From Bacteroidaceae bacterium (GTDB lineage: Bacteria > Bacteroidota > Bacteroidia > Bacteroidales > Bacteroidaceae), in assembly GCA_017448965.1 (NCBI GenBank), contig JAFSKK010000011.1, forward strand, positions 1 to 64,000: a stretch of 64,000 nucleotides of DNA, read 5' to 3'. Each line of letters begins with the position of its first letter. The first letter of the stretch is position 1. Under the pieces are notes generated by a model. The model saw only the letters and a list, made by a program, of their open reading frames with translations. It was not told where the DNA came from and searched no databases. This document shows positions 7,457 to 60,010 of the stretch, piece by piece. A program made the position numbers and the translations under genes.

Positions 7457-10400
7457 GGGGTGGGGAAAGCTTGGGGCTGCCGATACGTCTCATCGTCTCT
7501 CCAAGGTCGGTGGCGAGGCTCTCGAAGGTGTAGCCTTGGGATTGGAGGCGCGCTTGCAGTTCGGAGATGTTGATGTTCTCCTTGTCGACGAGGCGGCAGT
7601 GTTCGATGGCATGGCGCAGCTTGTCGCTGACCAGCAGGCCACCATTCACGTCCTTGCGGGCAATGTCCATCGGGATGACGAAGTTGTCACCGTCCTTGGC
7701 GGTCATGTAAGCCCCCTCCTTCAGGTCGTTGATGGCGCTGCGCTGCATTTCCATCTTCTCGATGGGATCGCTGAGGGTCTCAGCCAGTTTGAGCTTCTCC
7801 CCCGCACTTTCAAACCGTTCCTGGCTCTTCCATATGATGGCATCGCTCACCTTGTTGGGGTTCTGCAGGGACTCACCGTGCCGTTTGGGATCCATCAGGC
7901 GGCCTACATCGTCGGGACCGAAACTCTCCTGATGGTGCAGCACGTCCTCGATGACCGTGTGATCCACCTTCTTGCCGAACTTGTCGGCGGCTGCCTGACT
8001 GTGGGCTTCGTAGCCCAAAGCCTCTTTGTGGAGCGTGCGCCTGTAGAGTTGTTCCGTGGCCGACTGCTTGAAATAGACTTTCTCGCCCTTCGCGTTCAGG
8101 TAGTAGTAGGTGACGTCGCGGTCCATCGTCATGGTGTCTCCCGTCAGCAGCTGGGTGGTTTTCGAAGTGGAGACATTTTCTGTCTTGATCTGGTCGGGAC
8201 GAAGACCGTTCCGCAGTGCCAGTTCGCTGATGACAGCCTTGTCAACCTTGGCGTTGATGCCGTACCACTCGCGGTTGAACTCCGCCTTCACCATGGTGTA
8301 CTCAGGCGCGTCGAGCTGACGGAGCATGTGCTTGGCGGTCGGGTCGGCCTGCAGCTCAATGCAGAGCCTGCGTTTGAGGGCGAGGTTCTCGGGTGTAGGG
8401 TTCTCGTTGCACATCTCGATGGCGGCATGGAGGTCCTCGATGTTGCGGACGGCACGTGCATCGGTATATTTCTCAGCCTCCGTCTTCGGCACCTTGACAC
8501 GGGAGTCGGCGGCTTTGACATCAGCGGCAGCCTTGGCCTGTAGCTGGTTGCTTTCGTTGATGGCTTCCCTGGTGATGCGTCCTTTCTTTGCGGAGGAGTA
8601 TTGTCCCTTGGTGGGTTTCGCAGGCGTCTTCGGCTTGATGTCGCCTGGCTTGACAAGGGTGCTGGCGCTGACTTTGGGGTTGTACTTCGCTCGCAGTCCG
8701 CTGAAGCCCACGTGAAGTCCTATGCTGACACCTGTCATCAGAATCTGCATCTTGCCCATCTCCTTCGCCATCACCCACAGGTTTTTGGTCAGTTCCTCAT
8801 TGCCCGACTCGATGTAGATGTCGGTCAGCGTGGTGCCCAGCGCTGCCAGACTGAGTGCGTCGTAGGCGCGGAAGTAGGCTTCGGAGGCTCCGTAGGTCCA
8901 GAAGCCGACAGCGATGCGGCCCACAAGGACGGCTGTGCCATATTTCTCGTTGAACTTGTTAGTGGCATTCACGATGGGACGGGCATACTGCTCGAAGGTC
9001 AGTCGGGCACACTCCAGCAGATCGTCGCACAGACTGAGCGGGACGGTTTCGTTGAAGGTGTAGGCGGCCCTGTCGGTCAGCATGTGGTTGTACATCACCC
9101 CCACGAAATGCAGCGAAGCCTGGTCGAATCCGTAGCGGACCTCGTAGCCGTAGATCAGGTTGTCGATGTACTTGACGATGGGCATCAGACGGTTCGTCAG
9201 ACCCTGACGCTCGATGCTTTCGAGGAGTGCATTGAGCTTGGCCTTGGTCTCCTCGTCGGCCTTGATGGCGGCAGCCCATTCGGCATCGCTCTGGAAGGTG
9301 CGCCAAGGCTGGGAACAGAGCAGGACTTGCGTCTCGCAGCTGTATTTCCGGTTCTCCACCGTGGCTTCGAAAGTGATGACGGCATCGAGACGGGAAGGGG
9401 CGTCGAGCACACCCTCCATGCAGCGCAGCACACAGGAGGCGGTGTAGTTGCCCTTCGTGTCGGTGAAGTCGGGGAACAGGCCAATGCCCTGCACCTGGCG
9501 GTCATCAACTTCGTTGACGGCCTTGATGGAGAAGGCATGGGGCACGACGGCACTGATGACGACACGGTGCGCGTCCTCGTCGTAGTCGTAAAGGAGCAGC
9601 TGACCAGCGTTCTCGGCAGGGACGAAGAGTTTGCCGTTGCGCTTGTTGCCGACCAGACATTTCTTGTGCTTCTGCGGGTTGTACTCCTCGGTGTAGCACT
9701 TTACGTGGTTGTCCTGATCCTTCAGTTTGAATGCCAAACCCATGTAGTAGCGAACCAGCGGGAAGCGGGTGTCCATCACTCGTCCGCTTGGGGTCTTGGC
9801 CGTCAGCAGGATGTCGAAGTTGATGAAGTTGCCAGCCTTCCCGTTGTCCATCTTCGGGTCTTGCTTGCGGTCTATGATGAGGACCTCATGCACTTGCTTC
9901 TCTGCGTTCCACACCACCTTGGCACTGTAGAAGTCGGTGGGTTTGCCCGTTGTGTCAACCACCTTGGCGTCGACGGGAGCGGCATCGGGGAGACCGACCG
10001 CCACAAAGGGCAGACGAGTCGTCTTGTCGTAGTGGGCGGGCAGCGTGAGGTTGTCCTGACCGAAGAGGAACTTGCCCACCTCTATCTGGAAGTGGAGGTT
10101 GTTGGTGAAGCTGCCGCCAGCGTTGCCTATGTAGAAGCGGACGATGCCCTCTTCAGGGACGGGCTGACCAGGGGGCAGCTCGGGAGCGGAAATCCAAGCC
10201 GACTGCCATTCGCCTGCCATACCGCTAGGTTGCACCTGCATATATTGGTCGCCCGCACTGATCTGAATCATCTGCGTAAGTGCCATGTCGGTGTGTTCAT
10301 CGCCGCCAGGTGGAATGCGAACGATTCGGGCAAAGACCTGACGGGGCTTTTCGCCCACCAGCAGGGAATTGCCGAACTCCTTATAGATGCGAAGCTCGAT

Positions 10401-11087
10401 GCGGTCTAACGGGTTGTAGTCCTTTTTCTTACCGCCATTCTTCGTCGCCACATATCCCAGCATAGCCACCACGACACTGAGGGGAATCGTCCACGGCCAC
10501 TCGCCCTCGAAACCCGGGGCATCGTCATCGATAACGATGTGGGAATCCTTGGGCTCAGGAGCATCTTTCGAAACATCCAGTTCGATATGGGCGTCTATCA
10601 TTACCGTAAAGCTGCCTGTGGAATGGCCGGCGTCAATGCCTGATAAATTATGGAAGAACATGTTAATATACACGACAGATACATCATCAGGCACTGTGTA
10701 GGTCACTGTTGCCGAGGGCATCCCTCCCGACAAATCCTGATGCTTGTCTTTTACATCGTTCACATTAATTGATGCTTTATAACCGTCACTATTCCCATTT
10801 GCCCGAATTCCACGAACAGTGACCGTGATGGTTTGTCCAGGTCGGACGGCACCCTTGAATTTATGGTCATAGCCGGTGCCAGCATAGAAGCCCTCAGGGT
10901 CTACGAGCACTGGTTCCAAATCTACTCCGAAGACACTAAACTCGGCAGTGATCGTCACACCACCAAGTCGGGGGTCGTATTCGGTGTACTCTTCTTGAAG
11001 AGAATAGGCTGGCAATGAAATCCAGAGCAGAAATGTCAGGCTCAGAATCCTACAGGTTGACCATATATGATTGCCTCGATGTTTCAT
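7437..11087 (-). CDS. 1216-aa membrane-anchored protein of unknown function
   Basis: I do not recognise the family. The N-terminus has a signal peptide (hydrophobic residues about 13-28, ending PAYS). A beta-rich region of about 160 residues follows, resembling a lectin- or C2-like fold in composition. A single membrane helix at about 197-215 (PWTIPLSVVVAMLGYVAT) is followed by a basic GGKKK stop-transfer signal, which would put about 1000 residues on the cytoplasmic side. That part has beta-domain-like stretches to about 600, an alpha-rich section with two hydrophobic helices near 750-840, a Lys/Ala-rich coiled region, and a charged C-terminal 250 residues with MDRDVTYYYLNAKGEKVYF and KKVDHTVIEDVLHHQESFG. 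The size, modular layout and variable-looking C-terminus recall polymorphic toxins, but no known toxin motif or immunity gene is visible. It lies 56 bp downstream of the zinc-ribbon gene on the same strand. Confidence 0.75.
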   Translation of the reverse strand: MKHRGNHIWSTCRILSLTFLLWISLPAYSLQEEYTEYDPRLGGVTITAEFSVFGVDLEPVLVDPEGFYAGTGYDHKFKGAVRPGQTITVTVRGIRANGNSDGYKASINVNDVKDKHQDLSGGMPSATVTYTVPDDVSVVYINMFFHNLSGIDAGHSTGSFTVMIDAHIELDVSKDAPEPKDSHIVIDDDAPGFEGEWPWTIPLSVVVAMLGYVATKNGGKKKDYNPLDRIELRIYKEFGNSLLVGEKPRQVFARIVRIPPGGDEHTDMALTQMIQISAGDQYMQVQPSGMAGEWQSAWISAPELPPGQPVPEEGIVRFYIGNAGGSFTNNLHFQIEVGKFLFGQDNLTLPAHYDKTTRLPFVAVGLPDAAPVDAKVVDTTGKPTDFYSAKVVWNAEKQVHEVLIIDRKQDPKMDNGKAGNFINFDILLTAKTPSGRVMDTRFPLVRYYMGLAFKLKDQDNHVKCYTEEYNPQKHKKCLVGNKRNGKLFVPAENAGQLLLYDYDEDAHRVVISAVVPHAFSIKAVNEVDDRQVQGIGLFPDFTDTKGNYTASCVLRCMEGVLDAPSRLDAVITFEATVENRKYSCETQVLLCSQPWRTFQSDAEWAAAIKADEETKAKLNALLESIERQGLTNRLMPIVKYIDNLIYGYEVRYGFDQASLHFVGVMYNHMLTDRAAYTFNETVPLSLCDDLLECARLTFEQYARPIVNATNKFNEKYGTAVLVGRIAVGFWTYGASEAYFRAYDALSLAALGTTLTDIYIESGNEELTKNLWVMAKEMGKMQILMTGVSIGLHVGFSGLRAKYNPKVSASTLVKPGDIKPKTPAKPTKGQYSSAKKGRITREAINESNQLQAKAAADVKAADSRVKVPKTEAEKYTDARAVRNIEDLHAAIEMCNENPTPENLALKRRLCIELQADPTAKHMLRQLDAPEYTMVKAEFNREWYGINAKVDKAVISELALRNGLRPDQIKTENVSTSKTTQLLTGDTMTMDRDVTYYYLNAKGEKVYFKQSATEQLYRRTLHKEALGYEAHSQAAADKFGKKVDHTVIEDVLHHQESFGPDDVGRLMDPKRHGESLQNPNKVSDAIIWKSQERFESAGEKLKLAETLSDPIEKMEMQRSAINDLKEGAYMTAKDGDNFVIPMDIARKDVNGGLLVSDKLRHAIEHCRLVDKENINISELQARLQSQGYTFESLATDLGETMRRIGSPKLSPPPIPRTP

Positions 11088-11143
11088 GGGAGCTCTCTTT
11101 TGATATAAGATTTTTCTAGTAGTACAATTATCTGATTGTTAGG

Positions 11144-11734
11144 CTAAGAGAAGATTTTGCTAATCAGACGGAAGAAGTACAAGATAATGGTGAAGGCGGT
11201 GGTGAGCACCGGCAGGAGGAACCATGCGTATGCGAGCTTGTTCGCGGGGGTGAAGAAGTTCTTGATGCTTGTCAGCAATGAGGTGGGGGAGGCTGGCCTC
11301 AGTGCTGGCATGTTCCAACAGGATGCCATCCATGAACCCGGCTGATTGCTGGCTGGAATGTCGAAAACCCGGGCTAAAGAGTTGTATGCACTGGCCGCCC
11401 GAGCCGCTTGGGGCATAAATGGCGGCGGTGTCTGCATGGCAGCTTGAGGTTGTAGAGGCACAAAGGGTGGCGGTGCCTGCATGGCTGCCTGAGGCGGTTG
11501 GGGCACAAAGGGAGGTGGTGCCTGCATGGCTGCCTGAGGTGCTTGGGGCACAAAAGGAGGTGGTGTCTGCATGGCAGCTTCGGGTGCCTTGGGGGCAGCT
11601 GGTGGACACACTGGTGGTGCAGCTGGTGGTGCAGCAGGTGGTGTGACCATCTTTTCGGGTACTTTCTTTCCACACTTGGTACAGAACTTCAGGCCGGGCG
11701 TTAAAGGTTGCCCACATTGGGTACAGAATGCCAT
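11144..11734 (-). CDS. Zinc-ribbon, proline-repeat membrane protein
   Basis: This 196-aa protein begins with a zinc ribbon (C4, C7, C18, C21: FCTQCGQPL and FCTKCGKKV). A Pro/Ala linker and four exact-length 15-residue repeats of AAMQxPPPFVPQxPQ type (residues 53-112) follow. The C-terminus carries one membrane helix (about 168-190) with a short basic tail. It has no signal peptide, so it is likely tail-anchored with the ribbon and repeat arm in the cytoplasm. Such Zn-ribbon/TM proteins often act as adaptors; here the partner is presumably the large downstream gene. It has its own TATCTTTG promoter box at 11797-11790. The PPPF repeats could bind an SH3-, WW- or EVH1-like partner, which is inference only. 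Confidence 0.75.
   Translation of the reverse strand: MAFCTQCGQPLTPGLKFCTKCGKKVPEKMVTPPAAPPAAPPVCPPAAPKAPEAAMQTPPPFVPQAPQAAMQAPPPFVPQPPQAAMQAPPPFVPLQPQAAMQTPPPFMPQAARAASAYNSLARVFDIPASNQPGSWMASCWNMPALRPASPTSLLTSIKNFFTPANKLAYAWFLLPVLTTAFTIILYFFRLISKIFS
11399..11578 (-). repeat. Four in-frame 45-bp repeats in the zinc-ribbon gene
   Basis: Four tandem 45-bp units encode AAMQTPPPFVPQAPQ, AAMQAPPPFVPQPPQ, AAMQAPPPFVPLQPQ and AAMQTPPPFMPQAAR. Unit length is constant, so copy number can change without frameshift. Confidence 0.85.
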
Positions 11735-11789
11735 ACGCTAGGTTGTTTGGGTTTTCTTTTTGTTTGAAGTGGTAGACTTCTTGAGATGG

Positions 11790-11797
11790 CAAAGATA
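11790..11797 (-). promoter_or_regulatory. -7 box upstream of the zinc-ribbon gene
   Basis: CAAAGATA on the plus strand is TATCTTTG on the minus strand, 56 bp before the zinc-ribbon ATG. It fits the TAnnTTTG consensus and suggests a transcript of the zinc-ribbon and 1216-aa genes separate from the upstream lipoprotein. Confidence 0.55.
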
Positions 11798-11915
11798 CGA
11801 AAAAAGTCTCACATATTTAATAACATGCAAGACCTTTTTTGTGATATATAAGACCTTTTTCCCAAATAGAAAGAAAAAGCGGCCTTTGGAGACAATTTTT
11901 CACCAGACCTTTTGG

Positions 11916-13586
11916 TTACTTATAGTAGTAGTGGTAAATGTTGAAAGAATAGCTGTCTGAATATTCCTGTACTCTTATTCCACACAGGTTGTTGTTCGTA
12001 TCACGGCCACTATGGATTTCTGTATATGCGCCAGGGTTCTCATCTTTTATTAATGAAGCGTTCATATTGTATTTGAAGTCTTGGACGATGTTGCTGAGGA
12101 TGTTCTTGTAGCCGTCTGGAGCATCTGTTTTCTTGATGGAGAAATTATATGAAACTTGATTGAAATTGCTGGAGCCGCTATAGTCCTCAAATTCAAAACT
12201 GGAAAATTTCATCCCTTGATACGTCAATTCCCCGAGAGAAGAATTATCCCATGTCGATACAGTAAATGTCTTATATTGTGGATAATCAGTCGATATAATA
12301 TAAGTGCTTTTAATCGCATTTTTGACCTCGTAGTACGATGCAGTCTTCAGGTTGACGTTGAAGATGCCCAGTGGTTTCTCCAGATAATTCTTGAGTGCAG
12401 TCAATGCTTCGCGGCTTTGGGCTTGTGCAACAAGCACTTCTGCCGAAACCTGCCCTTCAGAATCGGTGAACCTCAGCGTCGTGTATCGCGTACCTGTGGT
12501 GTAGGTGGAGGCTCTGACGGTAACAGCAACATTGCCGCTGCCGCTGGAGGGTGTGCATGTCACCCAGGGGTCGTCTGCTTCAACTGTCCATGATGTGTTG
12601 GACGAGACGTTGATTTTCTCTCCCGAACCGTAGGCAGACACGAAGATGTTGGCTGGCTCCACATTCACCCGGATGGGTTCTCCCCATTGAAGAACTGAGA
12701 GGGTGGCCGTGGAATTTCCCGACGTGAAGGTGATGACCCCTTCGCGTGGAGCCGTGATTTCAGACACTTCAGCGGTGACGATGACCGTTTTGTTGCCGCT
12801 GCCATAAGAGGGCGAGAATCGAATCCATTCAGCGTCGGTCGTCACGTCCCATTCGGCCGAACAATGGAGCAAGACCGTCGCGTCGCCACCACTATATGGG
12901 AAAGAGAGGGACGACAGTTGCGTTTCGCCCGTGCCCTTGCAGTTTCTGCATTGGCCGCTGCCGACACACGAGAGGCAATGTCCGTCGCCACCACATGTGG
13001 GGCACATGGGGTTGCCGTGACATGTTGAACAGCTTCCGTCTCCACAAGGGCAAATTCCTGTTCCGTCGCAGTACCAACAGATTTTGTCTGTATTGCCATT
13101 CACGCAATACTTGCATTTTCCAGAACCGCCACAGGTGTTACACTTGTAGGACGAGCTAATCGTCCATCCCCGACCGTCGCAGGTGGAGCAATGCCCTGGC
13201 CATCTGGTGCAATGCGAGCAGTTCTCAAGTCTGTCGCCACCACACGAGCTGCATTTTCTTGTGCCTCTGCATTCCTGACATCTGCCCGTTGAGCCACAAT
13301 CCTTGCAATACTTGCCTGTGCCGCCACAGCGTCCGCATCCCTTTCCTGTGCCATTGCATTGAGGACAATCCTTCTCGCCGTCACAGTCGCCGCATATCCT
13401 CATCAACTGCAACGTGCCGTCCTCTGGAGTTTCGGGCTTACCAGAAATGGAATCATTGCCAGAACCCTGATAGGCAGGGGGACTGATTGCGCCATCGTCA
13501 TCGCCTCCGCAGGCAGAGAGCGTGAACGTCATGACACACACCAAGAGTGCCATGAGTAAGAACAAGTAATTGCTACGGTTTTTCAT
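11916..13586 (-). CDS. Lipoprotein with a long CxxC zinc-knuckle array and two BACON domains
   Basis: From ATG 13586 the product is 556 aa. A lipoprotein signal (LSAC, lipidated C26) is followed by GGDDDG, an acidic pattern like the Bacteroidetes lipoprotein surface-export signal. Residues 65-216 hold fifteen CxxC pairs plus one CPC, many as CxxCxGxG (for example CGRCGGTGKYCKDCGSTG), the zinc-finger motif of DnaJ. Two BACON domains follow, at about 222-302 and 305-395, each with the typical W-x-V and S/G-rich endings. A C-terminal ~160-residue domain is unrecognised. DnaJ-type knuckles are normally cytoplasmic, so an array this long on a surface lipoprotein is unusual. BACON domains commonly bind glycans or mucin. 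A longer reading to 13670 would mask the lipobox. Confidence 0.85.
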   Translation of the reverse strand: MKNRSNYLFLLMALLVCVMTFTLSACGGDDDGAISPPAYQGSGNDSISGKPETPEDGTLQLMRICGDCDGEKDCPQCNGTGKGCGRCGGTGKYCKDCGSTGRCQECRGTRKCSSCGGDRLENCSHCTRWPGHCSTCDGRGWTISSSYKCNTCGGSGKCKYCVNGNTDKICWYCDGTGICPCGDGSCSTCHGNPMCPTCGGDGHCLSCVGSGQCRNCKGTGETQLSSLSFPYSGGDATVLLHCSAEWDVTTDAEWIRFSPSYGSGNKTVIVTAEVSEITAPREGVITFTSGNSTATLSVLQWGEPIRVNVEPANIFVSAYGSGEKINVSSNTSWTVEADDPWVTCTPSSGSGNVAVTVRASTYTTGTRYTTLRFTDSEGQVSAEVLVAQAQSREALTALKNYLEKPLGIFNVNLKTASYYEVKNAIKSTYIISTDYPQYKTFTVSTWDNSSLGELTYQGMKFSSFEFEDYSGSSNFNQVSYNFSIKKTDAPDGYKNILSNIVQDFKYNMNASLIKDENPGAYTEIHSGRDTNNNLCGIRVQEYSDSYSFNIYHYYYK

Positions 13587-50620: not shown

Positions 50621-52987
50621 ATGACAGATTATCTGGAGACTTTTAATCCTCCGCAACGGGCAGCGGTGGAATATTGCGAGGGACCATCGCTGGTGATTGC
50701 TGGTGCGGGTTCTGGCAAGACGAGGGTGCTGACCTATAAGATTGCCTATCTGATGGAGCACGGTTATCAGCCGTGGTCAATTTTGGCGTTGACATTCACC
50801 AACAAGGCGGCTGGCGAGATGAAAGACCGCATTGCAAAGATTGTGGGAGTGGATTATGCGAGGATGTTGTGGATGGGGACGTTCCACAGCATCTTTCTTC
50901 GTATTCTGCGGCAGGAACATGAAAGGATTGGCTTCTCGGCAAACTTCACCATTTACGATGCGGCTGATAGCAAGAGTCTGCTCAAGACCATCATCAAGGA
51001 GATGGATCTGGATGACAAATCGTATAAGCCAGGCACGGTGCAAGGAGCCATCTCGAACGCGAAGAACCACTTGGTGACAGCAGAGCAGTATCTTTCGAAT
51101 CCTGCAAACCGACAAGCTGATGCACGCCGCAGTATGGTGGCGTTGGGGCAGATATTCCAACGCTATTGCAACCGTTGCAAGCAGAGTGATGCGATGGATT
51201 TTGATGATATTTTGCTCTATACATATTTGTTGTTTGAACAACATCCTGAAGTGTTGGAGAAATGGGAACAACGTTTCAGGTATGTCTTGGTAGATGAGTA
51301 TCAAGACACGAACTTTGCCCAGCATCGCATTGTGTGGCAGTTGACCCGTCGCCATCAACATGTTTGTGTGGTGGGAGATGATGCACAAAGCATCTATAGT
51401 TTCCGTGGAGCAAACATTGACAACATCTTGACGTTCCAAAAGATATACGAAAGTGCCAAGTTGTTCAAGCTGGAGAGGAATTATCGTTCCACGCAGAATA
51501 TTGTGGAAGCGGCAAACAGTCTCATCAAAAAGAATAGCCACCAGATTCAGAAAGACATTTTCTCAGAGAATGACAAGGGTGAGAAACTGCATGTGTTGGA
51601 CACTCATTCAGATATCGAAGAGGCCAAGATGGTGGTGAATGCCATCCGAAGTGTGAAGCGGAGAGAAGGGTGTGAATATTCTGATTTTGCTATCCTCTAC
51701 AGAACTAACGCCCAAAGCCGTGTGTTTGAAGACACGCTTCGGAAGGAGGCGTTGCCATATCGCATCTATGGAGGACTTTCGTTCTATCAACGCAAGGAAA
51801 TCAAGGATGTCATTGCTTATTTCCGCTTGGCTGTGAATCCGAATGATGAGGAGGCTTTCAAGCGTGTCATCAATTATCCCGCGCGTGGTATCGGGCAGAC
51901 AACGGTGTCGAAGATTCTGGAGGTGGCAACAAGGAATGAGGTGAGCCTTTGGAGTGTCATCAACAACCCCGCACAATTTGAGTTGGGTGTGAATAAGGGA
52001 ACGTTGGCAAAGATTGATAGGTTCCGCGAGATGATAGACTCGTTCATTGAACAGGCACAGAAACTGCCTGCCAATCAGATGGGTGTCATGATTGTGAAGG
52101 AGAGCGGCATCACCACAGACATCTATCAGGACACAACGCCAGAGAACCTTTCCCGACAGGAGAATGTGGAGGAACTCATCAATGGTATGCAGGACTTTTG
52201 CGACATGCGCATGGAAGAGGGAAACGAGAATATCTCGTTGAACGATTATCTGTCGGAAGTGTCGCTGATGAGCGATGTGGACAGCGACAAAGGGGATGAT
52301 GAGCATAAGGTCACGCTCATGACGATTCACTCGGCCAAAGGTCTGGAATTTGGCACCGTGTTTGTAGTAGGTCTCGAAGAAGGCCTCTTTCCCAGCGACA
52401 TGGTGTCGGGCAATCCACGTGAGATGGAGGAGGAACGACGCCTTTTCTATGTTGCCATCACTCGTGCCAAGACACATTGCTATCTGTCGTATGCTCAATG
52501 CCGTTTCCGCTATGGTCAGATGGAGTTCTCGGCTCCCAGCCGCTTCCTGAAAGACATCGATCCCAAGTATCTGGACAGAAATCAGAGCATGTTCACTTCA
52601 AGGAAAATGGCAGATGACAACGTCGAACTGCCGTGGAAACGCAAGAGTCTTTTTGGAGACAACACCAAAGCAGGGGAGTCATTCGCTCAGCGTCCCTATC
52701 GACCAATCATACCTAAACCTGCTTCATCCCAACCACCGAAAAGCTCACCAGCTTTCACTCGTTACCCTCGTGAGCTTAGTGGAACAAAGCTCGTGGATGA
52801 AGCGTCGGTGCGCTCTACCTCAGTCGGCCTCGCTGTGGGCAAGCACATCATCCACAACCGCTTCGGACGTGGAGAAGTCCTCCGTGTGGAAGGAACAGGC
52901 GACAACACCAAAGCCACCGTCCAGTTCGAGAATGTCGGCACCAAACAGCTATTGTTGAAGTTCGCTAAGTTTGAAGTGTTGGACTGA
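50621..52987 (+). CDS. UvrD/PcrA-type superfamily 1 DNA helicase
   Basis: This 788-aa protein has all SF1A motifs: Walker A AGAGSGKTRVL, motif Ia LTFTNKAAGEMKDR, motif II DEYQDTNFAQHR, motif III GDDAQSIYSFRGA, motif IV YRSTQNI, motif V HSAKGLEFGTVFVVGLEEG and motif VI VAITRAKT. The C-terminal region is basic and Pro-rich with a final short Tudor-like fold, as in PcrA. It unwinds DNA 3' to 5' in repair and replication restart. It ends 7 bp from the convergent CHAT gene. Confidence 0.94.
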   Translation: MTDYLETFNPPQRAAVEYCEGPSLVIAGAGSGKTRVLTYKIAYLMEHGYQPWSILALTFTNKAAGEMKDRIAKIVGVDYARMLWMGTFHSIFLRILRQEHERIGFSANFTIYDAADSKSLLKTIIKEMDLDDKSYKPGTVQGAISNAKNHLVTAEQYLSNPANRQADARRSMVALGQIFQRYCNRCKQSDAMDFDDILLYTYLLFEQHPEVLEKWEQRFRYVLVDEYQDTNFAQHRIVWQLTRRHQHVCVVGDDAQSIYSFRGANIDNILTFQKIYESAKLFKLERNYRSTQNIVEAANSLIKKNSHQIQKDIFSENDKGEKLHVLDTHSDIEEAKMVVNAIRSVKRREGCEYSDFAILYRTNAQSRVFEDTLRKEALPYRIYGGLSFYQRKEIKDVIAYFRLAVNPNDEEAFKRVINYPARGIGQTTVSKILEVATRNEVSLWSVINNPAQFELGVNKGTLAKIDRFREMIDSFIEQAQKLPANQMGVMIVKESGITTDIYQDTTPENLSRQENVEELINGMQDFCDMRMEEGNENISLNDYLSEVSLMSDVDSDKGDDEHKVTLMTIHSAKGLEFGTVFVVGLEEGLFPSDMVSGNPREMEEERRLFYVAITRAKTHCYLSYAQCRFRYGQMEFSAPSRFLKDIDPKYLDRNQSMFTSRKMADDNVELPWKRKSLFGDNTKAGESFAQRPYRPIIPKPASSQPPKSSPAFTRYPRELSGTKLVDEASVRSTSVGLAVGKHIIHNRFGRGEVLRVEGTGDNTKATVQFENVGTKQLLLKFAKFEVLD

Positions 52988-52994
52988 GAGGTTC

Positions 52995-55124
52995 TCATTC
53001 CAATCCATCCAACAAAATGAAGGCTGCCCAATATTTGGGATCGTTCCAACCTTTTTCCTTGTGAGAACGAACCGATTGCTTGGCTGCTTCCAGTGCATCA
53101 TGTTTGTTCATCTTCTCTGCGATCCAATTTTTGTAAAATTCTGTCATCAGCAGACAGGTGGCTTCATCGTCCACTTTCCACAACGACATGAGGATGCTCT
53201 GGGCACCTGCCTTCTTGAAACCGCGTTGCAGGCCAAAGACACCTTCGCTGGTGATGTCGCCTTGTGCAGTTTCGCAGGCGCTGAGAGTAGTGAGATCAAG
53301 TCCGCGTAAGTCAAGTGTGGCTATTTCGGCAGCGGTCAGGATTCCGTCTTCGATGCCTTGTGGCAAAGTCATGCCTTGATACTTGTTGTCGGCTCCAGCG
53401 AAAAGGAGTCCACATCGAGACAACACATCGCTTGATGCAGATGATGCAGACGTTGGTGCGCTTTGATAGAAACCATGAGTCGCGACATGAATGAGGCGTT
53501 TGAATTGTCCGCTTAGATTCTTGAAGGAAGCTTCCGTGCCCTGGTCGGCCAATAGCGCTTCAGCATGCATTTCTTTGTGCGAAGCATTGTTGATGGTCTT
53601 CACGATGTTTTGTGCTTCGGTTTTGGTGCCAGCCAAATAGGGGATTCCATCGTTGATAGCACCACGGAGATTATAGGCATAACGTGTTTCGCCGCGCTGT
53701 TGCGGATACCGTGTGGCATCTTGTTTCATGCTCTCAATGCTGGTATCGTAGGCCAAACCTCCATACACGACAGCATCTTTACCTTCGACGGGTTCTGTGT
53801 TGAGCGCCAGCCAGCGGGTGGATGAAACGCGGTACATCTTGTAAACTTCTCCAATCAGACGACCGTCGGACAGTTGAAGTGATTCGATGGGCAGTTGGTA
53901 AAGAAGTCCTGATGGAGCAAAATAAATGCGTTGCACATTGCTGCCACCCATCTTGATGATAGGTTGCCAGATTCGTTCGGCCAGATTGCTGGGATTGCTT
54001 TCCAGTTCTTTCTTCTCTATGAGTGGCAAGAAATGCACATGATTCCATTGAGGCGACATGATGAGGGCTGCGTACATAGTGCTGTCCTTGCCCACACGAT
54101 AGTCGACGAACTCTATCGCGAGGTCTGTCGCCGTCAGTTTTGCGCGTACATCACCTTGGTGCACTTGCAGGAAATCCATGAATTGATGCAGGCCATTGGC
54201 CGATTCACCCAGTTCGCGCTCCAAGCGGTCGGCTTCCAATGTGGCGGCATTGGCTTGTGCTGGCGGCGTTTGGGCATCAGAGGCTCTTTTTCGCAATAGG
54301 CGGATTTTCTTATATTGTGCAGATAGTAGTGAATCATTGTCGATGGTTCGTTGCAAAGCACTTTCAGCAGTGAGGAGAAGACCCTTTGCCAGCAGTTGCT
54401 GGTCGAAGAGCGCATCGGTGAAGTCGCTGTCAAATTCCTGTAACTTATGAGCAAAAGCGTACATGATGGTAGTTGCACCCAAATTCTTGTTCCAATATGC
54501 TGTACGTTCCGTGGCTGTCAAATAAACAAAGTTGCGTTCCACGTTCTTCTGGATGATGTTGAATATGGCTTTGCGGTCGTTGAGGGCGACAGCCTTCTGG
54601 TTCAGAAATCCTGCTATGTTGGAACGATAGTTATAGGCATCCTGTGTTTCCGAATGGAGCGGACCATAGTAGTCAATGGCCGTTTCCACGCATTTATCGG
54701 CCGCCTGCATGGTCTCATCTTTCTTGTCCAAATAGTAATAAGCTTGTGACAGTTGCATCCATGCAATGGAAAGGTCGTCTTTTGCTGCATCGCCGGCTTG
54801 TTGCAGCAATGCAAGCGCGCGTTGTATATCCGTGACTGTTCTTTCGTATTGCTTCATGTGCGAATACCCATTGGCACGTGCACTATAATATGAAGCCAAA
54901 TCCTTGGACGGATACCCTGTCGTTTTCTCGCTGCGGTCAATTAGTTTGGTTAGCGTGTCAATCCCTTCGGAATACTTTTGGTTTTGTATAATATTTTTTA
55001 CTGCGCGTTCGTAAGACCTCACATCTGCCTTGTAGGCATTGAGGGCACTCTCATTGAGTTGTGCGGAGGCCATGAGGCTGATAGTGTATGCCACCATTAG
55101 CCATGCAAATCGTTTTTTCGTCAT
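52995..55124 (-). CDS. Exported TPR-CHAT peptidase
   Basis: This 709-aa protein has an N-terminal hydrophobic stretch and cleavage-like site (WLMVAYTISLMASAQ), so it is probably exported. TPR-type helical repeats cover about 30-330, and a CHAT (caspase HetF associated with TPRs) domain covers about 400-705. The catalytic dyad is H550 (HVATHGFY) and C617 (TLSACETA). CHAT domains are caspase-like cysteine proteases often used in prokaryotic conflict systems; a periplasmic or surface location is unusual for defence effectors. It is the last gene of the RyR-TIR-SUMF1 operon and starts 1 bp after the TPR lipoprotein gene. Confidence 0.88.
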   Translation of the reverse strand: MTKKRFAWLMVAYTISLMASAQLNESALNAYKADVRSYERAVKNIIQNQKYSEGIDTLTKLIDRSEKTTGYPSKDLASYYSARANGYSHMKQYERTVTDIQRALALLQQAGDAAKDDLSIAWMQLSQAYYYLDKKDETMQAADKCVETAIDYYGPLHSETQDAYNYRSNIAGFLNQKAVALNDRKAIFNIIQKNVERNFVYLTATERTAYWNKNLGATTIMYAFAHKLQEFDSDFTDALFDQQLLAKGLLLTAESALQRTIDNDSLLSAQYKKIRLLRKRASDAQTPPAQANAATLEADRLERELGESANGLHQFMDFLQVHQGDVRAKLTATDLAIEFVDYRVGKDSTMYAALIMSPQWNHVHFLPLIEKKELESNPSNLAERIWQPIIKMGGSNVQRIYFAPSGLLYQLPIESLQLSDGRLIGEVYKMYRVSSTRWLALNTEPVEGKDAVVYGGLAYDTSIESMKQDATRYPQQRGETRYAYNLRGAINDGIPYLAGTKTEAQNIVKTINNASHKEMHAEALLADQGTEASFKNLSGQFKRLIHVATHGFYQSAPTSASSASSDVLSRCGLLFAGADNKYQGMTLPQGIEDGILTAAEIATLDLRGLDLTTLSACETAQGDITSEGVFGLQRGFKKAGAQSILMSLWKVDDEATCLLMTEFYKNWIAEKMNKHDALEAAKQSVRSHKEKGWNDPKYWAAFILLDGLE

Positions 55125-55125
55125 A

Positions 55126-55953
55126 TCAATCGTTATTTTTTAATTCATCAGTTCGTTGTTGCCATAGTGCGGCTTTCTCAGCATCAGGAATGTCGCTTGT
55201 GTATAGGTTTGTCAGTTTCTGTGCCAATAGCTGTGCGTAGATTTGTGCATCTTTCGTAGGGTCTGCCTTGCAGAGATTATATCCTTTTTCGAGATGGGGT
55301 AATGCTAGTTGAAACCGCTCGGATTCCATCTCTATGCTCCCCAGCGTGTAGAGTGCCTTACCTTGCAGAAGATTACGCTCTGTATTGCCCTCACATTCGC
55401 TCACAATCTGCAATAATAACGACTCGGCTTCATCATTTTTCAGAAGAGAATGCAACATGTTGGCTCTTGATGTTTGTTCTCTTAGTCGTTTCTCTGGAGC
55501 TTTTGCCAAGTCGAAATATCGCTCGGCCTCCAGACTTAGTTCAATGGCCTGCTCCAAATCGCCATTTTCCATTCGGATGTTAAGCGACTGTACACTATGC
55601 CATTGACCCATCCATGAGTAAATCATATAATATGCCTTTCCCTCAGGCTTGGCGTTCGCGAGCGCTTTTTCCAAATGTTCTTTCGCGGTGGGAAAGTCTT
55701 TGTTATCCATCGCATTCACACCCATGTATAGGTAGTTAATGGCTACGAAATTTCTGACGGTGGGAATCAGAGAATCTCTTCCCGTTTCCTTCAGCAGAGT
55801 GATCGCCTTTTCGTAACACTCGCTCGACTTTGCATACTCCTTCTGTTTGAACAAGGTCTGTGCTTCAGCCATGAGTTCATCATAGCTTCCTGTTTGAGCC
55901 TGACATCCCAGCGTGGCAAGTATCAGAAATAAAATGGTTAATGTTCTTTTCAT
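55126..55953 (-). CDS. TPR-containing lipoprotein
   Basis: From ATG 55953 the product is 275 aa with a lipobox (LATLGC) then QAQ. The remainder is helical repeats: YDELMAEAQTLFKQKEYAKS, NAMDNKDFPTAKEHLEKALA and ALYTLGSIEMESERFQLALP are recognisable TPR units. It is likely an adaptor holding the CHAT protein or its substrate at the membrane. It lies directly ahead of the CHAT gene and 16 bp after the preceding gene. The extended frame to 56031 lacks a lipobox at the correct position and is not used. Confidence 0.82.
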   Translation of the reverse strand: MKRTLTILFLILATLGCQAQTGSYDELMAEAQTLFKQKEYAKSSECYEKAITLLKETGRDSLIPTVRNFVAINYLYMGVNAMDNKDFPTAKEHLEKALANAKPEGKAYYMIYSWMGQWHSVQSLNIRMENGDLEQAIELSLEAERYFDLAKAPEKRLREQTSRANMLHSLLKNDEAESLLLQIVSECEGNTERNLLQGKALYTLGSIEMESERFQLALPHLEKGYNLCKADPTKDAQIYAQLLAQKLTNLYTSDIPDAEKAALWQQRTDELKNND

Positions 55954-55969
55954 GATGCAGATGTTTTTT

Positions 55970-56617
55970 TTAATTGCTGATAACCACAACGCTGCAGTCC
56001 TTCTTTCCGCAGTTGATAATTTCCAGTTCAACAGTGTTTCGTTTGTCGGTTGGGAGTTCGAAAGAGGTCTTGCGGTGGGGTTGCCCTTTTTTCACGTCGC
56101 GAGTGTCGTCATAACGTTTGTTGAGCCCTGCGTCATTGGTGACGTGAATGCGCATCGTGACGAGGCCGCCCGCTTCGGCTACGACAGCAAGTTCTTGATG
56201 CCCTTTGGAACCGAAGGTGTATTTGGTGCTTTGACCAGCTTTGACAAAGCAAGTTTTGGTGAGGATGGAACCATTGGGAGTCTGACCACGGTGAATGCCT
56301 GAACGGCTCAGTTTGTCTGCATCCCGATAGACATCGATGCCTTCTGCAAGACTGTCGGCAAAGGTTTCGTTGAAGACAAGGTGGCCATTGAGGGATGCGA
56401 CAGAGTCATCTTGGCAGTTCAAGGTGCTGAAGTCAGCGGTTTGGCAGTTGCGTAGTGCTGCAGCTGACTGTCTGATGGCAGCCGTATCGTTGGTGGCCAC
56501 GGCGTCGCGCATGGCAATGCAGGCTTCGAACACAGCCTGAATGTCGCTGTCGCCTTTCTGGGCATAAACAGACAACGTGGTGAGAACTGCAAGGAACGGA
56601 AGAATCAGTCTTTTCAT
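55970..56617 (-). CDS. Exported protein of unknown family in the CHAT/TIR operon
   Basis: This 215-aa protein has a signal peptide (LILPFLAVLTTLSVYAQ). The N-terminal third is helical with C33, C58 and C68; the rest is beta-rich with a likely Ig- or C2-like fold (STKYTFGSKGHQELAVVAEA, TVELEIINCGKKDCSVVVIS). The two C-terminal Cys could form a disulfide. I recognise no family. Operon position places it with the TPR lipoprotein and the CHAT protease outside the cytoplasm, perhaps as sensor, inhibitor or substrate. Confidence 0.7.
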   Translation of the reverse strand: MKRLILPFLAVLTTLSVYAQKGDSDIQAVFEACIAMRDAVATNDTAAIRQSAAALRNCQTADFSTLNCQDDSVASLNGHLVFNETFADSLAEGIDVYRDADKLSRSGIHRGQTPNGSILTKTCFVKAGQSTKYTFGSKGHQELAVVAEAGGLVTMRIHVTNDAGLNKRYDDTRDVKKGQPHRKTSFELPTDKRNTVELEIINCGKKDCSVVVISN

Positions 56618-56678
56618 GTTGCCGAGATTTTACGGTTATACAGTTACGGGGTTTTGATAGCGTGTGAATAGAGATTGC

Positions 56679-57983
56679 TTAGGGCTGGGCTTTGCGGATG
56701 ACGAGGCGAAAACCGACCGTCTTTTCTTTGGCATCCGTGTTGAGACCTGCACGTGAAGAAATGGCGACCTCTTCAACAGGCGAATTATAGTGTCCGCCGC
56801 AGACGGTCCATTGTGCCCCGTCGGTTGCAGAGATGATGGGCGTATTGCACCATTCGGCCACGTTTCCACTCATGTCGTAGAGGTCAAGCATGTTGGGTGT
56901 CTTACCCTGTTGTCCATCACAGGGATGTGCGTGTCCGTTGGAGTTGAGGCGATACCATGCTACGGAATCGGCATTGTTGCTGCCAGCGTAAGTGGTCTGT
57001 TCTTGGTGCCATGCTCCATGCGCGGCATATTCCCACTCTTCGACCGAAGGAAGATCAAACTCAAGGTTGGTCATATTGCGCAGGGTGTCAAGGTAGGTCA
57101 TGTTGATCTCACCAAAAGACACTTCTGCCATGGGCATGTTTGCTTCAGCCTCGTCATACGTTTCACCCATAATTCCGTGCCACCAACCCACAGTACATTC
57201 GAACTGGCTCATCCACAGAGTGTCAGGTCTGACAGGCACCATGCGACTGAGCATATTGTCGAGAGTGACCATTTGTTCCATGGTAAGGTTGTTGCTGAGA
57301 TAGAGGCCGAAGTCGCTGTATTTCTTTTCCAGTTCTGTGCGCATGGACTCCATCTTTTGTTGTTCGTCAATCCTTTGCCAGAAAAGGTAACAAGTGCCCA
57401 GAACGATTAGCACGATAGCAATAACGCCAGTCACACTGAGCCATTTCATGAATCTGTTATGGGCATCCTGTTTTCGAAGCGACTCTTGTGCCGTGTCGAA
57501 ATCTTCGTCCTTGTGTTCTTGCGAACTGCGTTGTCCAAGTGTAGGAACCAAACGGTTCTTAATCATCAGGTCGATAGTGGCACCAAGCGCCTGTCCGAAA
57601 CTGATTTCCGAATGCTGATGTGAGCCGATGGCATCCTGAAGGTTTTGTGGCATGCCATCAGGAAAACCGTCAAACCCGTTGTCGGGGTTGATCGGGATTA
57701 TTTTCTTCTGCTGTTCAAGGGCAAGCGTTATCTCCTGACGTACCCAATCACCCTCATTAGCGCATCGCTGCATAGAGTTTTTAGACAGCACCAGCATGAA
57801 CACAGGGGCTTCCTTGATGGCCGCTTTGATTTTATCGCTGAAGATGCCATCGGTCAGTTCGTCATAGTCGAGAAAAACTCTGTAGCCGCGTTGGATAAGC
57901 ATCAGCTGCAGGATGCGGGCATATTGTGCGCCTCCTGTCCTTCGGTAACTGATGAATATATCGTATGGCTGTTGGTCTTTCAT
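56679..57983 (-). CDS. TIR-TM-SUMF1 (FGE-sulfatase domain) protein
   Basis: This 434-aa protein has three parts. Residues 6-140 are a TIR domain (YDIFISYRRTGG, VFLDYDELTDG, and WVRQEITLALE with candidate catalytic Glu E84). A single membrane helix spans about 180-203 (WLSVTGVIAIVLIVLGTCYL). Residues about 235-430 are a formylglycine-generating-enzyme/SUMF1 domain (LPSVEEWEYAAHG, LYDMSGNVAEWC, SRAGLN, GFRLVI). Topology predicts a cytoplasmic TIR and a periplasmic SUMF1 domain. TIRs can be NADases or scaffold signals; SUMF1 domains in such fusions are generally binding modules. Its ATG overlaps the RyR stop by 4 bp. Confidence 0.9.
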   Translation of the reverse strand: MKDQQPYDIFISYRRTGGAQYARILQLMLIQRGYRVFLDYDELTDGIFSDKIKAAIKEAPVFMLVLSKNSMQRCANEGDWVRQEITLALEQQKKIIPINPDNGFDGFPDGMPQNLQDAIGSHQHSEISFGQALGATIDLMIKNRLVPTLGQRSSQEHKDEDFDTAQESLRKQDAHNRFMKWLSVTGVIAIVLIVLGTCYLFWQRIDEQQKMESMRTELEKKYSDFGLYLSNNLTMEQMVTLDNMLSRMVPVRPDTLWMSQFECTVGWWHGIMGETYDEAEANMPMAEVSFGEINMTYLDTLRNMTNLEFDLPSVEEWEYAAHGAWHQEQTTYAGSNNADSVAWYRLNSNGHAHPCDGQQGKTPNMLDLYDMSGNVAEWCNTPIISATDGAQWTVCGGHYNSPVEEVAISSRAGLNTDAKEKTVGFRLVIRKAQP

Positions 57984-58624
57984 TTCTTCTCGATTTTGTA
58001 CCCCATTGCAAGGAGGTATTTGAGGGTGTTGGTTGCCATCAGGCGGTCATATTGTTTTTCGGTTTCGGGCAGTTCCGAGTAGGGCACCATGTCTGGGGTC
58101 TGCATCTTGTCGTCGTTGCGTTGTAGTCCATAACTCCAGCCTTCGCTTTGACGCTCCAATGCCCACACATTATGTGCATTGGACGCCATCATTTCTCCCA
58201 GTTTTTTCAAGTCGTCTGAAAGTTCTATATGCGACAAGTCGGCTGGGGTGGGGAGATAGGTCTTGCTGTCCACCTTGAATGCTGTGATGCAGTCGCTGCC
58301 ATCGGCAATCCATTGTTGCAGGAATGTGGGCAACGGGAATATTTCCGTTTCATCTGCGATAGGGTTGTAGAGCGTGATCTTGTCCGCTGGACGGTTCACC
58401 ATCACAATGACTGTGTAGATGAGTCCGTCGTTCACGGCTCCGAAGAACCTGCCGCTGATGATGGGCATAATCACTCCTCCCTTACCTACAGCCGAGAAGA
58501 TGGCTTGTGGATTGAAGTCGTAACGTTTATACACTCGCAAGCCTGCTTCTTCCAGCGTTGTGCCTGCCATTCTCCGTTGTTCCAATGCGAACTTGACGCA
58601 TTGTTCGTAATACTGGATGTTCAT
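57980..58624 (-). CDS. RyR-domain protein
   Basis: From ATG 58624 the product is 214 aa; a TTG nine codons earlier is less likely. The C-terminal ~65 residues are a RyR domain (the repeat first found in ryanodine receptors): HNVWALERQSEGWSYGLQRN, then MVPYSELPETEKQYDR and TLKYLLAMGYKIE. The N-terminal 140 residues form an alpha/beta module I do not recognise. Prokaryotic RyR domains have been linked by comparative genomics to conflict and nucleotide-signal systems. It heads the operon and overlaps the TIR gene by 4 bp. A TACCTTTG box lies 83 bp upstream. Confidence 0.82.
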   Translation of the reverse strand: MNIQYYEQCVKFALEQRRMAGTTLEEAGLRVYKRYDFNPQAIFSAVGKGGVIMPIISGRFFGAVNDGLIYTVIVMVNRPADKITLYNPIADETEIFPLPTFLQQWIADGSDCITAFKVDSKTYLPTPADLSHIELSDDLKKLGEMMASNAHNVWALERQSEGWSYGLQRNDDKMQTPDMVPYSELPETEKQYDRLMATNTLKYLLAMGYKIEKK

Positions 58625-58706
58625 GGTTATGTCTGATTTAATGATTGACAAAGCTATTCATTCTTCAAAGCGATAGAATGTTTAGTTTTAGGTGATTGTT
58701 GGGTGG

Positions 58707-58714
58707 CAAAGGTA
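58707..58714 (-). promoter_or_regulatory. -7 box of the RyR-TIR-CHAT operon
   Basis: CAAAGGTA on plus is TACCTTTG on minus, 83 bp before the RyR gene ATG. Confidence 0.55.
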
Positions 58715-58806
58715 CATCTTTTTTCTTATACAACAAAAAAAGGTGTGGATTTTTTGTTGTGTCAGGAAAATATTGTGCATGTGTGTGATGTGTAGAAATA
58801 ATTGTG

Positions 58807-58814
58807 TAACTTTG
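58807..58814 (+). promoter_or_regulatory. -7 box of nspC
   Basis: TAACTTTG ends 17 bp before the nspC ATG, divergent from the RyR operon promoter. Confidence 0.6.
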
Positions 58815-58831
58815 CAGATAAAATGTGAAAT

Positions 58832-60010
58832 ATGACTTTGTTAGAAGAGAATATCAATCAGATTCCGTCGCCTTGTTATGTGATGGAAGAGACGTTGCTG
58901 CGTCGGAATTTGTCACTCATCAGCAGTGTAGCCACTCGTGCCGACGTGGAAATCATCTTGGCATTTAAGGCTTTTGCTCTGTGGAAGAGTTTCCCCATCT
59001 TTCGTGAATACATCCACCACACCACTGCATCGTCGCTTTTCGAGGCACGATTGGCAAAGGAGGAGTTTGGCAGCAAGGCGCACACCTATTCACCCGCATA
59101 TACAGAAGAAGAATTTGAAGATATTGTGGGATGCTCCAGTCACATCACGTTCAATTCGCTGAGCCAGTATGAGCGTTTTGCCAAGCAAGTGCAGGGTAGG
59201 GCTTCCATCGGATTGCGAGTGAATCCAGAATACAGCGAGATTGAAACGGAACTATACAATCCCTGTGCACCAGGTTCCCGCTTTGGTGTTTTGGCTTCCG
59301 GCCTTCCAGAGCAGTTGCCAGATGATATTGAGGGGTTCCATATCCATTGCCACTGTGAATCGGGCAGCGATGTGTTTGAACGTACTTTGCAGCATATTGA
59401 GGAGAAGTTCGCCAAGTGGTTCTCTCAAATCAAGTGGATCAATTTTGGTGGAGGCCATCTGATGACACGGAAAGATTATGATGTGGAACTGCTCATCAAC
59501 ACGCTCAACGCTTTTCATGCACGTTATCCCCATCTGAAAGTGATTCTCGAACCAGGCAGCGCATTTGCTTGGCAGACGGGTCCCCTTGTTGCGAAGGTGG
59601 TTGATATTGTAGAAAACAGCGGCATCAAGACCGCCATCATCAATGCCAGTTTCACATGCCACATGCCCGATTGTCTGGAAATGCCTTATATGCCAGCCAT
59701 CCGAGGTGCTGAAATCGTCGAATCTGAAACAGGAGAACTTCAATCCTTCAATTTTTCAACTTTTCAATTCTCATATCGTATTGGTGGAAACTCTTGTCTT
59801 TCAGGCGATTTCTTGGGCATGTGGAAGTTTGACCACGAATTGCAGATAGGGGAGACCCTCATCTTCGAGGACATGATACATTACACGACCGTGAAGACCA
59901 CGATGTTCAACGGCATTGGTCATCCTTCCATTGGCATGTTACACAAAGACGGAACATTTGAATTGTTCCGTCAGTTCACTTACGAAGATTACCGTGACCG
60001 CATGTGCTGA
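58832..60010 (+). CDS. nspC: Carboxynorspermidine decarboxylase
   Basis: This 392-aa PLP enzyme of the alanine-racemase-fold decarboxylases carries the PLP Lys at K46 (ILAFKAFALW), phosphate/Gly loop INFGGGHLMT, HCHCESGSDVFERT, LEPGSAFAW and the catalytic-site IGGNSCLSGDF near the C-terminus. It makes norspermidine or spermidine in the alternative polyamine route of Bacteroidetes. The product is about a dozen residues longer than usual: a stretch LQSFNFSTFQFS before YRIGGNS is encoded by a TTCAAT-type low-complexity run (59742-59769) that elsewhere in the window is intergenic. Confidence 0.94.
   Translation: MTLLEENINQIPSPCYVMEETLLRRNLSLISSVATRADVEIILAFKAFALWKSFPIFREYIHHTTASSLFEARLAKEEFGSKAHTYSPAYTEEEFEDIVGCSSHITFNSLSQYERFAKQVQGRASIGLRVNPEYSEIETELYNPCAPGSRFGVLASGLPEQLPDDIEGFHIHCHCESGSDVFERTLQHIEEKFAKWFSQIKWINFGGGHLMTRKDYDVELLINTLNAFHARYPHLKVILEPGSAFAWQTGPLVAKVVDIVENSGIKTAIINASFTCHMPDCLEMPYMPAIRGAEIVESETGELQSFNFSTFQFSYRIGGNSCLSGDFLGMWKFDHELQIGETLIFEDMIHYTTVKTTMFNGIGHPSIGMLHKDGTFELFRQFTYEDYRDRMC

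Follow-up and report, generated by a model that had tools for sequence, protein, structure and literature searches.

What would a bacterium do with an operon that puts a RyR domain and a TIR domain on one side of its inner membrane and a SUMF1 fold and a caspase-like protease on the other? The question is raised by a stretch of 64,000 nucleotides (hereafter the window) from a Bacteroidaceae bacterium (assembly GCA_017448965.1, contig JAFSKK010000011.1, positions 1-64,000 of the forward strand), whose genome, labelled G000, is 85.6% complete. Between positions 52995 and 58624 the window contains five open reading frames (ORFs), all on the minus strand, in the order RyR, TIR-TM-SUMF1 (TM, transmembrane segment), EXP (an exported protein of no named family), TPR and CHAT. 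An earlier note on this DNA had proposed a trans-envelope sensor-effector whose TIR domain would be triggered by proteolysis or a ligand outside the inner membrane. The analysis presented here supports this interpretation in part. The conserved unit is a core made of TIR-TM-SUMF1, EXP and an exported CHAT, of which the set of five genes is an uncommon form. The trans-envelope model is a reasonable one that has gained support, and RyR, for its part, probably binds the product of TIR. With belief and doubt about equally balanced, we propose that the operon encodes a trans-envelope TIR signalling system, in which sensing on the outside would drive production of ADP-ribose (ADPR) signals by TIR, to be read or mopped up by RyR.

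The ORFs and their spacings (a 4-bp overlap, then 61, 16 and 1 bp) are those given in the earlier note, and Pfam matches were obtained for each of the RyR, TIR, SUMF1, TPR and CHAT domains that it had named. The TIR-TM-SUMF1 gene (57983-56679, minus strand) encodes a chain of 434 aa matching both TIR_2 (5e-13) and FGE-sulfatase/SUMF1 (2.7e-15). Its predicted topology comprises a cytoplasmic TIR domain (residues ~7-110), a single TM helix (~182-200) and a periplasmic SUMF1, or C-type-lectin-like, domain (~250-430). EXP (56617-55970, minus strand, 215 aa), with N-terminal helices and a C-terminal beta-sandwich, was the only product without any match in the Pfam scan of the five genes. It is followed on the same strand by the TPR protein (55953-55126, 275 aa) and the CHAT protease (55124-52995, 709 aa; Pfam CHAT, 4e-51). 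Hydropathy profiles revealed a hydrophobic N-terminal stretch in EXP, TPR and CHAT. Combined with the single TM helix of the TIR-SUMF1 chain, these stretches predict that RyR and TIR lie inside, and SUMF1, EXP, TPR and CHAT outside, the inner membrane, which is the division drawn earlier.

The association of TIR-TM-SUMF1, EXP and CHAT was examined in 13 EXP loci: 11 recovered by a pattern scan of genome contigs with EXP as bait, the window itself, and a locus of genome G357 (L094) encoding a distant EXP member (30% identity). Where a title was given, these loci were labelled Prevotella, Prevotellaceae, Bacteroidaceae, Muribaculaceae or Bacteroidales metagenome-assembled genomes. In all 13, a TIR-TM-SUMF1 gene lies directly upstream of EXP on the same strand, at a called distance of 11-93 bp, and the first or second gene after EXP, again on this strand, encodes CHAT. 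Every one of the 13 EXP proteins has the hydrophobic N-terminal stretch and every TIR-SUMF1 chain a single TM helix. A survey of 45 genomes of the genus found EXP in five and full-length TIR-SUMF1 in exactly the same five, side by side, the remaining 40 yielding partial matches to the SUMF1 or the TIR part only. EXP was present in three of 393 genomes drawn from the order, and gave no match in viral contigs, plasmids or phages. Thus, the core is uncommon and scattered in its distribution, but its genes are closely linked. As a specific marker gene, EXP can be used to look for more such systems. The literature available yielded no name for the core, no paper uniting CHAT, SUMF1 and TIR domains by those names, none on RyR, TIR and CHAT together in prokaryotes, none on TIR and CHAT domains in Bacteroidetes and a single one, the preprint PMC13232231, on RyR and TIR domains in bacteria; the core may have been described elsewhere. 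In a Muribaculaceae locus, a second TIR-TM protein is encoded between EXP and CHAT (L092, 4848-6020).

EXP has diverged in step with the outside domain of the chain. Across 12 loci (L094 left out), EXP distances correlated with SUMF1 distances (Mantel r 0.88, P 1e-4); the correlation with distances of the TIR domain of the same chain was low (r 0.18, P 0.19). This co-divergence is what would be expected if EXP acts together with the outside domain, although shared ancestry alone would give part of it. The TIR subtype is swapped in three loci (L089, L091 and L094). Compared with the window, L089 and L091 both retain 34% identity in TIR, against 74% and 66% in EXP and 57% and 53% in SUMF1. These features can be read as those of an outside sensor coupled to an exchangeable TIR enzyme inside.

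The window TIR domain belongs to the TIR_2 family (50.1 bits, cut-off 28) and matches SARM1/tir-1 chains in the PDB (E 3e-18 to 5e-15). Residue E84, which we take to be at the catalytic glutamate position of TIR NADases, is invariant in the 13 TIR domains of the core loci, including the swapped ones. The SUMF1 part adopts the FGE fold by its profile match (57.2 bits versus 23.3, covering profile positions 82-254 of 255). The catalytic cysteine pair of formylglycine-generating enzymes (FGE) presumably lies near the C-terminus, after a GG motif. No cysteine follows this motif in 12 of the 13 aligned sequences, the window's included; L093 alone has two (GGC..EC). The window SUMF1 should therefore not be a working formylglycine-generating enzyme and is best read as a binding fold. 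Elsewhere in the same genome (contig C42, 17000-36000, labelled L047), a likely diversity-generating retroelement (DGR) spans 8622-12100, with two SUMF1-like ORFs and the genome's only RVT_1 match. A 60-bp stretch starting at 12002 matches the end of the second of these ORFs with five mismatches, all at template A. The TIR-SUMF1 gene was considered as a target of this element and rejected: no L047 stretch fits its 3' end as a template, and the sole RVT_1 match in the genome sequence, which is 85.6% complete, is on that other contig.

The CHAT protein scored 174.6 bits against a cut-off of 24. Its His/Cys pair (H550/C617), singled out earlier along with E84, was found in all 23 sequences spanning it; the alignment held 25, two of them fragments, and included every CHAT match in the 13 loci rather than only the EXP neighbours. 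By domain and dyad the exported CHAT is thus predicted to be a caspase-like protease. In genome G059, a single 974-aa fused TPR-CHAT protein matches both the window TPR protein (53%, residues 1-270) and the window CHAT (63%), so that the five genes may be counted as encoding four proteins, of which one is in two parts. The fourth gene had been called a TPR lipoprotein. The TPR part of this label stands and the cysteine is present in the window and its sister locus L083; the lipoprotein part is doubtful. The context of the cysteine varies (LATLGCQAQ in the window, LATMACQAQ in the sister, ..CTCHAQ in the fused homologue). Since the hydrophobic stretch ends in ..AQ in all three exported proteins, and in ..CTCHAQ in the fused homologue, ordinary signal-peptide cleavage at AQ is at least as likely as lipidation. 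In L087, a change of frame seems to divide the CHAT ORF (9671-13481) close to its end; the last 62 residues are 77% identical to the window CHAT and the preceding part 38%.

The RyR protein (58624-57980, minus strand, 214 aa) consists of a degenerate C39-like region (residues ~1-120) and a RyR domain (PF02026; residues 123-213, 3.2e-31, 107.8 bits versus a cut-off of 27.4). Its N-terminus gave no C39 match; by alignment, it lacks the cysteine segment and has a tyrosine in place of the histidine. Among its relatives, the Peptidase_C39_2 scores (cut-off 24) were just above threshold in L098 (25.7 bits) and L050 (24.1), weaker in four others and nil in L048 and L096. A 2026 preprint (PMC13232231) describes a phage RyR protein, RyDEP, that cleaves 2'/3'cADPR (cyclic ADPR), and reports that six of eight tested phage RyR homologues bind these molecules and that the other homologues tested did not hydrolyse them. 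The RyDEP ligand residues given there are H75, W78, H100, which binds phosphate, and D117. H151, W154 and D193 of the window RyR are the equivalents of H75, W78 and D117 at matching spacing (+3, +42), the mapping having been made by spacing and not by alignment to RyDEP itself. With three of the four ligand residues in place, the window RyR may bind cADPR, and membership among the RyDEP-type glycosidases is not claimed.

A link between RyR and TIR is also apparent from gene position. RyR domains occur in nine of the 45 genus genomes and 37 of the 393 order genomes. Counted per genome, 25 of the 45 that bear RyR (24/44 without the window's own) have a RyR gene no more than 5 kb from a TIR_2 gene, where random placement of TIR genes predicts 0.5; within 10 kb the figures are 26 of 45 and 1.0. 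Matches short of the family cut-offs (two for RyR, six for TIR) had been dropped before counting, as had a repeat listing of G000. The P value was not used as evidence because the uniform null ignores both the clustering of genes in islands and the kinship of the genomes. As a control from restriction systems, Methylase_S (type I specificity) was within 15 kb of RyR in none of the 45 genomes (nearest at ~15.7 kb, in G261), this being a single control family from which 13 of the 45 genomes have no member at all. The binding of cADPR by phage RyR proteins, the histidine, tryptophan and aspartate kept in the window protein and the linkage to TIR together suggest that RyR is likely to have ADPR nucleotides made by TIR as its ligand.

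The position of the operon indicates that it was inserted as one piece. The block (52988-58831) lies between pcrA (50621-52987) and nspC (58832-60010), both on the plus strand, the five genes being antisense to them and the stop codons of CHAT and pcrA 7 bp apart. In one other genome, G045 (locus L083), the whole block is found between the same neighbours at 91-95% identity. An nspC gene was found in 44 of the 45 genus genomes, and the loci of 30 were examined, 28 of them other than G000 and G045. In 20 of these 28, nspC follows directly on the end of pcrA: the gap ranges from -1 to 136 bp and is 4 to 42 bp in 17 of them. In the other eight, pcrA was not seen in the examined flank, which is short in L144. 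The adjacency of pcrA and nspC in relatives and the position of the block in G000 and G045 thus point to a single inserted unit with clear edges. A Bacteroidetes-type promoter box, as we take TACCTTTG to be, is a candidate for driving the operon (58714-58707, minus strand, upstream of the RyR gene). This box is real and identical in L083. A further TAnnTTTG is present at 58656, and the five genes themselves contain no copy on that strand. Since one or two such motifs are expected by chance per 5.8 kb, the box alone is weak evidence. The gap between RyR and nspC (58624-58831) contains promoter-like boxes facing both ways, nspC having its own TAACTTTG.

The full five-gene form was seen only in G000 and G045, two closely related genomes among the 45, so that the co-occurrence expected in the earlier note was borne out in part: the core recurs in all 13 EXP loci, the complete set in only these two genus genomes. 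Genome G059 offers a possible explanation. Its contig C8 (L088) carries TIR-SUMF1, EXP and CHAT; its contig C42 (L043) carries another TIR gene, then RyR (70% identity with that of the window) and, after 10 bp, the fused TPR-CHAT gene. Most simply, the operon of the window can be read as a merger of RyR and TPR-CHAT with TIR-SUMF1 and EXP, modules that are apart in G059; such a merger would explain the rarity of the full set.

A mechanism can be proposed on these grounds. The SUMF1 ectodomain and EXP would form a sensor complex outside the inner membrane, whose state would be controlled by exported TPR-CHAT, either directly or through something on which this protease acts. A change in the sensor would pass through the single TM helix and cluster the cytoplasmic TIR domains, which would then cleave NAD+ to ADPR-type products. 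RyR, on the inside, would bind and possibly hydrolyse the TIR product, so as to read, limit or end the signal. The most likely biological role is defence or a response to envelope damage.

Several observations weigh against this proposal. The topology of the products is predicted from simple hydropathy, without a signal-peptide predictor. The 13 of 13 counts come from a pattern scan that favours close relatives. Without the two swapped-TIR loci, the EXP-SUMF1 correlation is 0.91 and the EXP-TIR correlation reaches 0.70, so that the contrast between the two owes much to the swapped TIRs. RyR is not a constant part of the core: it adjoins the core run in three of the 13 loci (upstream in the window and L083; downstream in L086, in the same-strand run directly after CHAT), lies elsewhere in the examined stretch in two (L089 and L094) and was not seen in eight. 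The position of the phosphate-binding H100 of RyDEP (+25) is occupied in the window RyR by T176; in seven aligned RyR relatives, it is histidine in L040 and L050 and threonine in five. The CHAT partner is exchangeable, since the window CHAT resembles that of the G059 RyR module (63%) more closely than those of EXP loci other than L083 (28-43%, with one weak partial match at 22% and the 62-residue fragment at 77% in L087). Finally, apart from models that include a TIR, the PADLOC output held a single JAB match, at chance level.

Relatives of the RyR protein suggest a further output. In the six cases tested with NCBIfam, a C39-like/RyR protein of 310-390 aa is encoded directly downstream of a gene resembling those of extracytoplasmic-function (ECF) sigma factors (TIGR02937, E 4e-8 to 1e-10, all below the curated cut-off). 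The coordinates of these genes, with those of the PrsW-like genes described below, are L089:3793-5981, L094:2874-4410 and 11181-11903, L096:2862-4569, L097:7291-8959, L098:6491-8036 and L050:4666-6396. A seventh case, L048, gave a weak match with Pfam, and two more long RyR frames at G281:C63 and G412:C16:37596 are outside the six. By eye only, with no profile confirmation, the N-termini of these proteins look like anti-sigma segments. Two of the 13 core loci also encode a PrsW-like intramembrane protease (L089, PF13367, 2.1e-38; L094, NF033739, 4.2e-41, below cut-off). Neither a sigma nor a PrsW gene is among the five genes of the window. These gene neighbourhoods suggest that some relatives convert the TIR signal into transcription, and the pairs are possibly a nucleotide-gated sigma system. 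The fullest version of our proposal, offered tentatively and with distinctly more doubt than belief, would liken the system to a Toll-like receptor. A C-type-lectin-like sensor and EXP, gated by the exported protease, would switch TIR, and host RyR domains would read the ADPR signal. In relatives, a RyR reader behind an anti-sigma-like segment, next to the ECF-sigma-like gene, would place transcription under TIR control.

The same ECF-sigma pairs bear on the strongest alternative, abortive infection, whereby a triggered TIR would deplete NAD+ and kill or arrest the cell, RyR serving as a safety sponge or hydrolase for stray cADPR. The intact TIR glutamate, the H151 and D193 equivalents of RyDEP H75 and D117, and the lack of a separate cytoplasmic effector gene in the block would all suit this role, as would the hydrolase or sponge action of phage RyR domains described in the preprint (PMC13232231). 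However, an ECF-sigma-like gene before all six C39-like/RyR proteins tested with NCBIfam looks like signal reading, and in the preprint the other phage RyR homologues tested did not hydrolyse. We regard abortive infection as unlikely, if a serious contender. Housekeeping surveillance, in which SUMF1, EXP and CHAT would watch over the envelope of their own cell, with the product of TIR tuning physiology, could account for the core being kept in loci with four different taxonomic labels from Prevotella to Muribaculaceae, for the ECF-sigma-like and PrsW-like genes of L089 and L094 and for the absence of EXP from the mobile elements searched. The patchy distribution, the insertion between two housekeeping genes, the swapping of modules and the known place of TIR and CHAT in conflict systems make it improbable. 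A reversed direction, with TIR and RyR sensing infection inside and the chain activating CHAT outside as effector, is more improbable still: CHAT and TPR are predicted to be exported, with catalytic residues kept, and TPR-CHAT is the Craspase protease (PMC9729208), yet a lectin-like domain outside with an enzyme inside better fits outside-in signalling, and EXP follows the ectodomain in the distance correlation. Chance neighbourhood in a defence island, for which the confinement of the full set to two related genomes might speak, is scarcely credible and for the core already hard to hold, given the constant core order, the clean pcrA/nspC junction and the TPR-CHAT fusion in G059.

If the signalling proposal is true, TIR signalling would extend across the bacterial envelope, and bacterial RyR domains would act as partners of TIR enzymes and not only as phage countermeasures. 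A receptor-like architecture of protease, sensor and second messenger would be contained in one small operon that could be transferred to a laboratory strain. In the fullest version of the proposal, transcription controlled by a TIR signal through RyR and an ECF-sigma-like gene would be a new output of TIR signalling.

All the domains belong to known kinds, and the operon would be a form of TIR-based signalling. With Thoeris and other TIR-cADPR anti-phage systems it shares a TIR domain with the conserved glutamate, and phage RyR domains bind their 2'/3'cADPR signals (PMC13232231). It differs by its membrane-anchored TIR with an outside SUMF1 and by its exported CHAT and EXP; no ThsA-type effector was found among the five genes, pcrA and nspC, the range searched, which gave only partial ThsB-like TIR matches. 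As with RyDEP, the window RyR has the histidine, tryptophan and aspartate of the ligand site, by spacing; it differs by T176, by being a host gene in a TIR operon and by its junction to a C39-like region. The TPR-CHAT of Craspase (PMC9729208) similarly joins TPR to a caspase-like CHAT; the window pair is predicted to be exported, with no CRISPR partner among the five genes. In the putative conflict systems of PMC10907252, TIR, CHAT and CLec/FGE (C-type-lectin) domains are combined, some CLec targets are predicted to be periplasmic and CLec/FGE sensors are diversified by DGRs. The window operon differs by its separate exported CHAT and EXP, its RyR and the lack of a fitting DGR template near the genome's only RVT_1 match, itself on another contig. 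The text of that paper does not mention RyR, and the passages of PMC7159879 consulted name neither RyR nor CHAT. GldK/PorK and other exported SUMF1-fold proteins share a SUMF1 fold predicted outside the inner membrane (7.9e-10); the window SUMF1 is fused to TIR and, at 38.6 bits against a curated cut-off of 350, is not GldK. Animal Toll-like receptors are single-pass proteins with a recognition domain outside and a TIR domain inside. The window chain has the reverse order, TIR being N-terminal, and an unrelated ectodomain; the likeness lies in how it would work, with recognition outside, one pass through the membrane and TIR inside.

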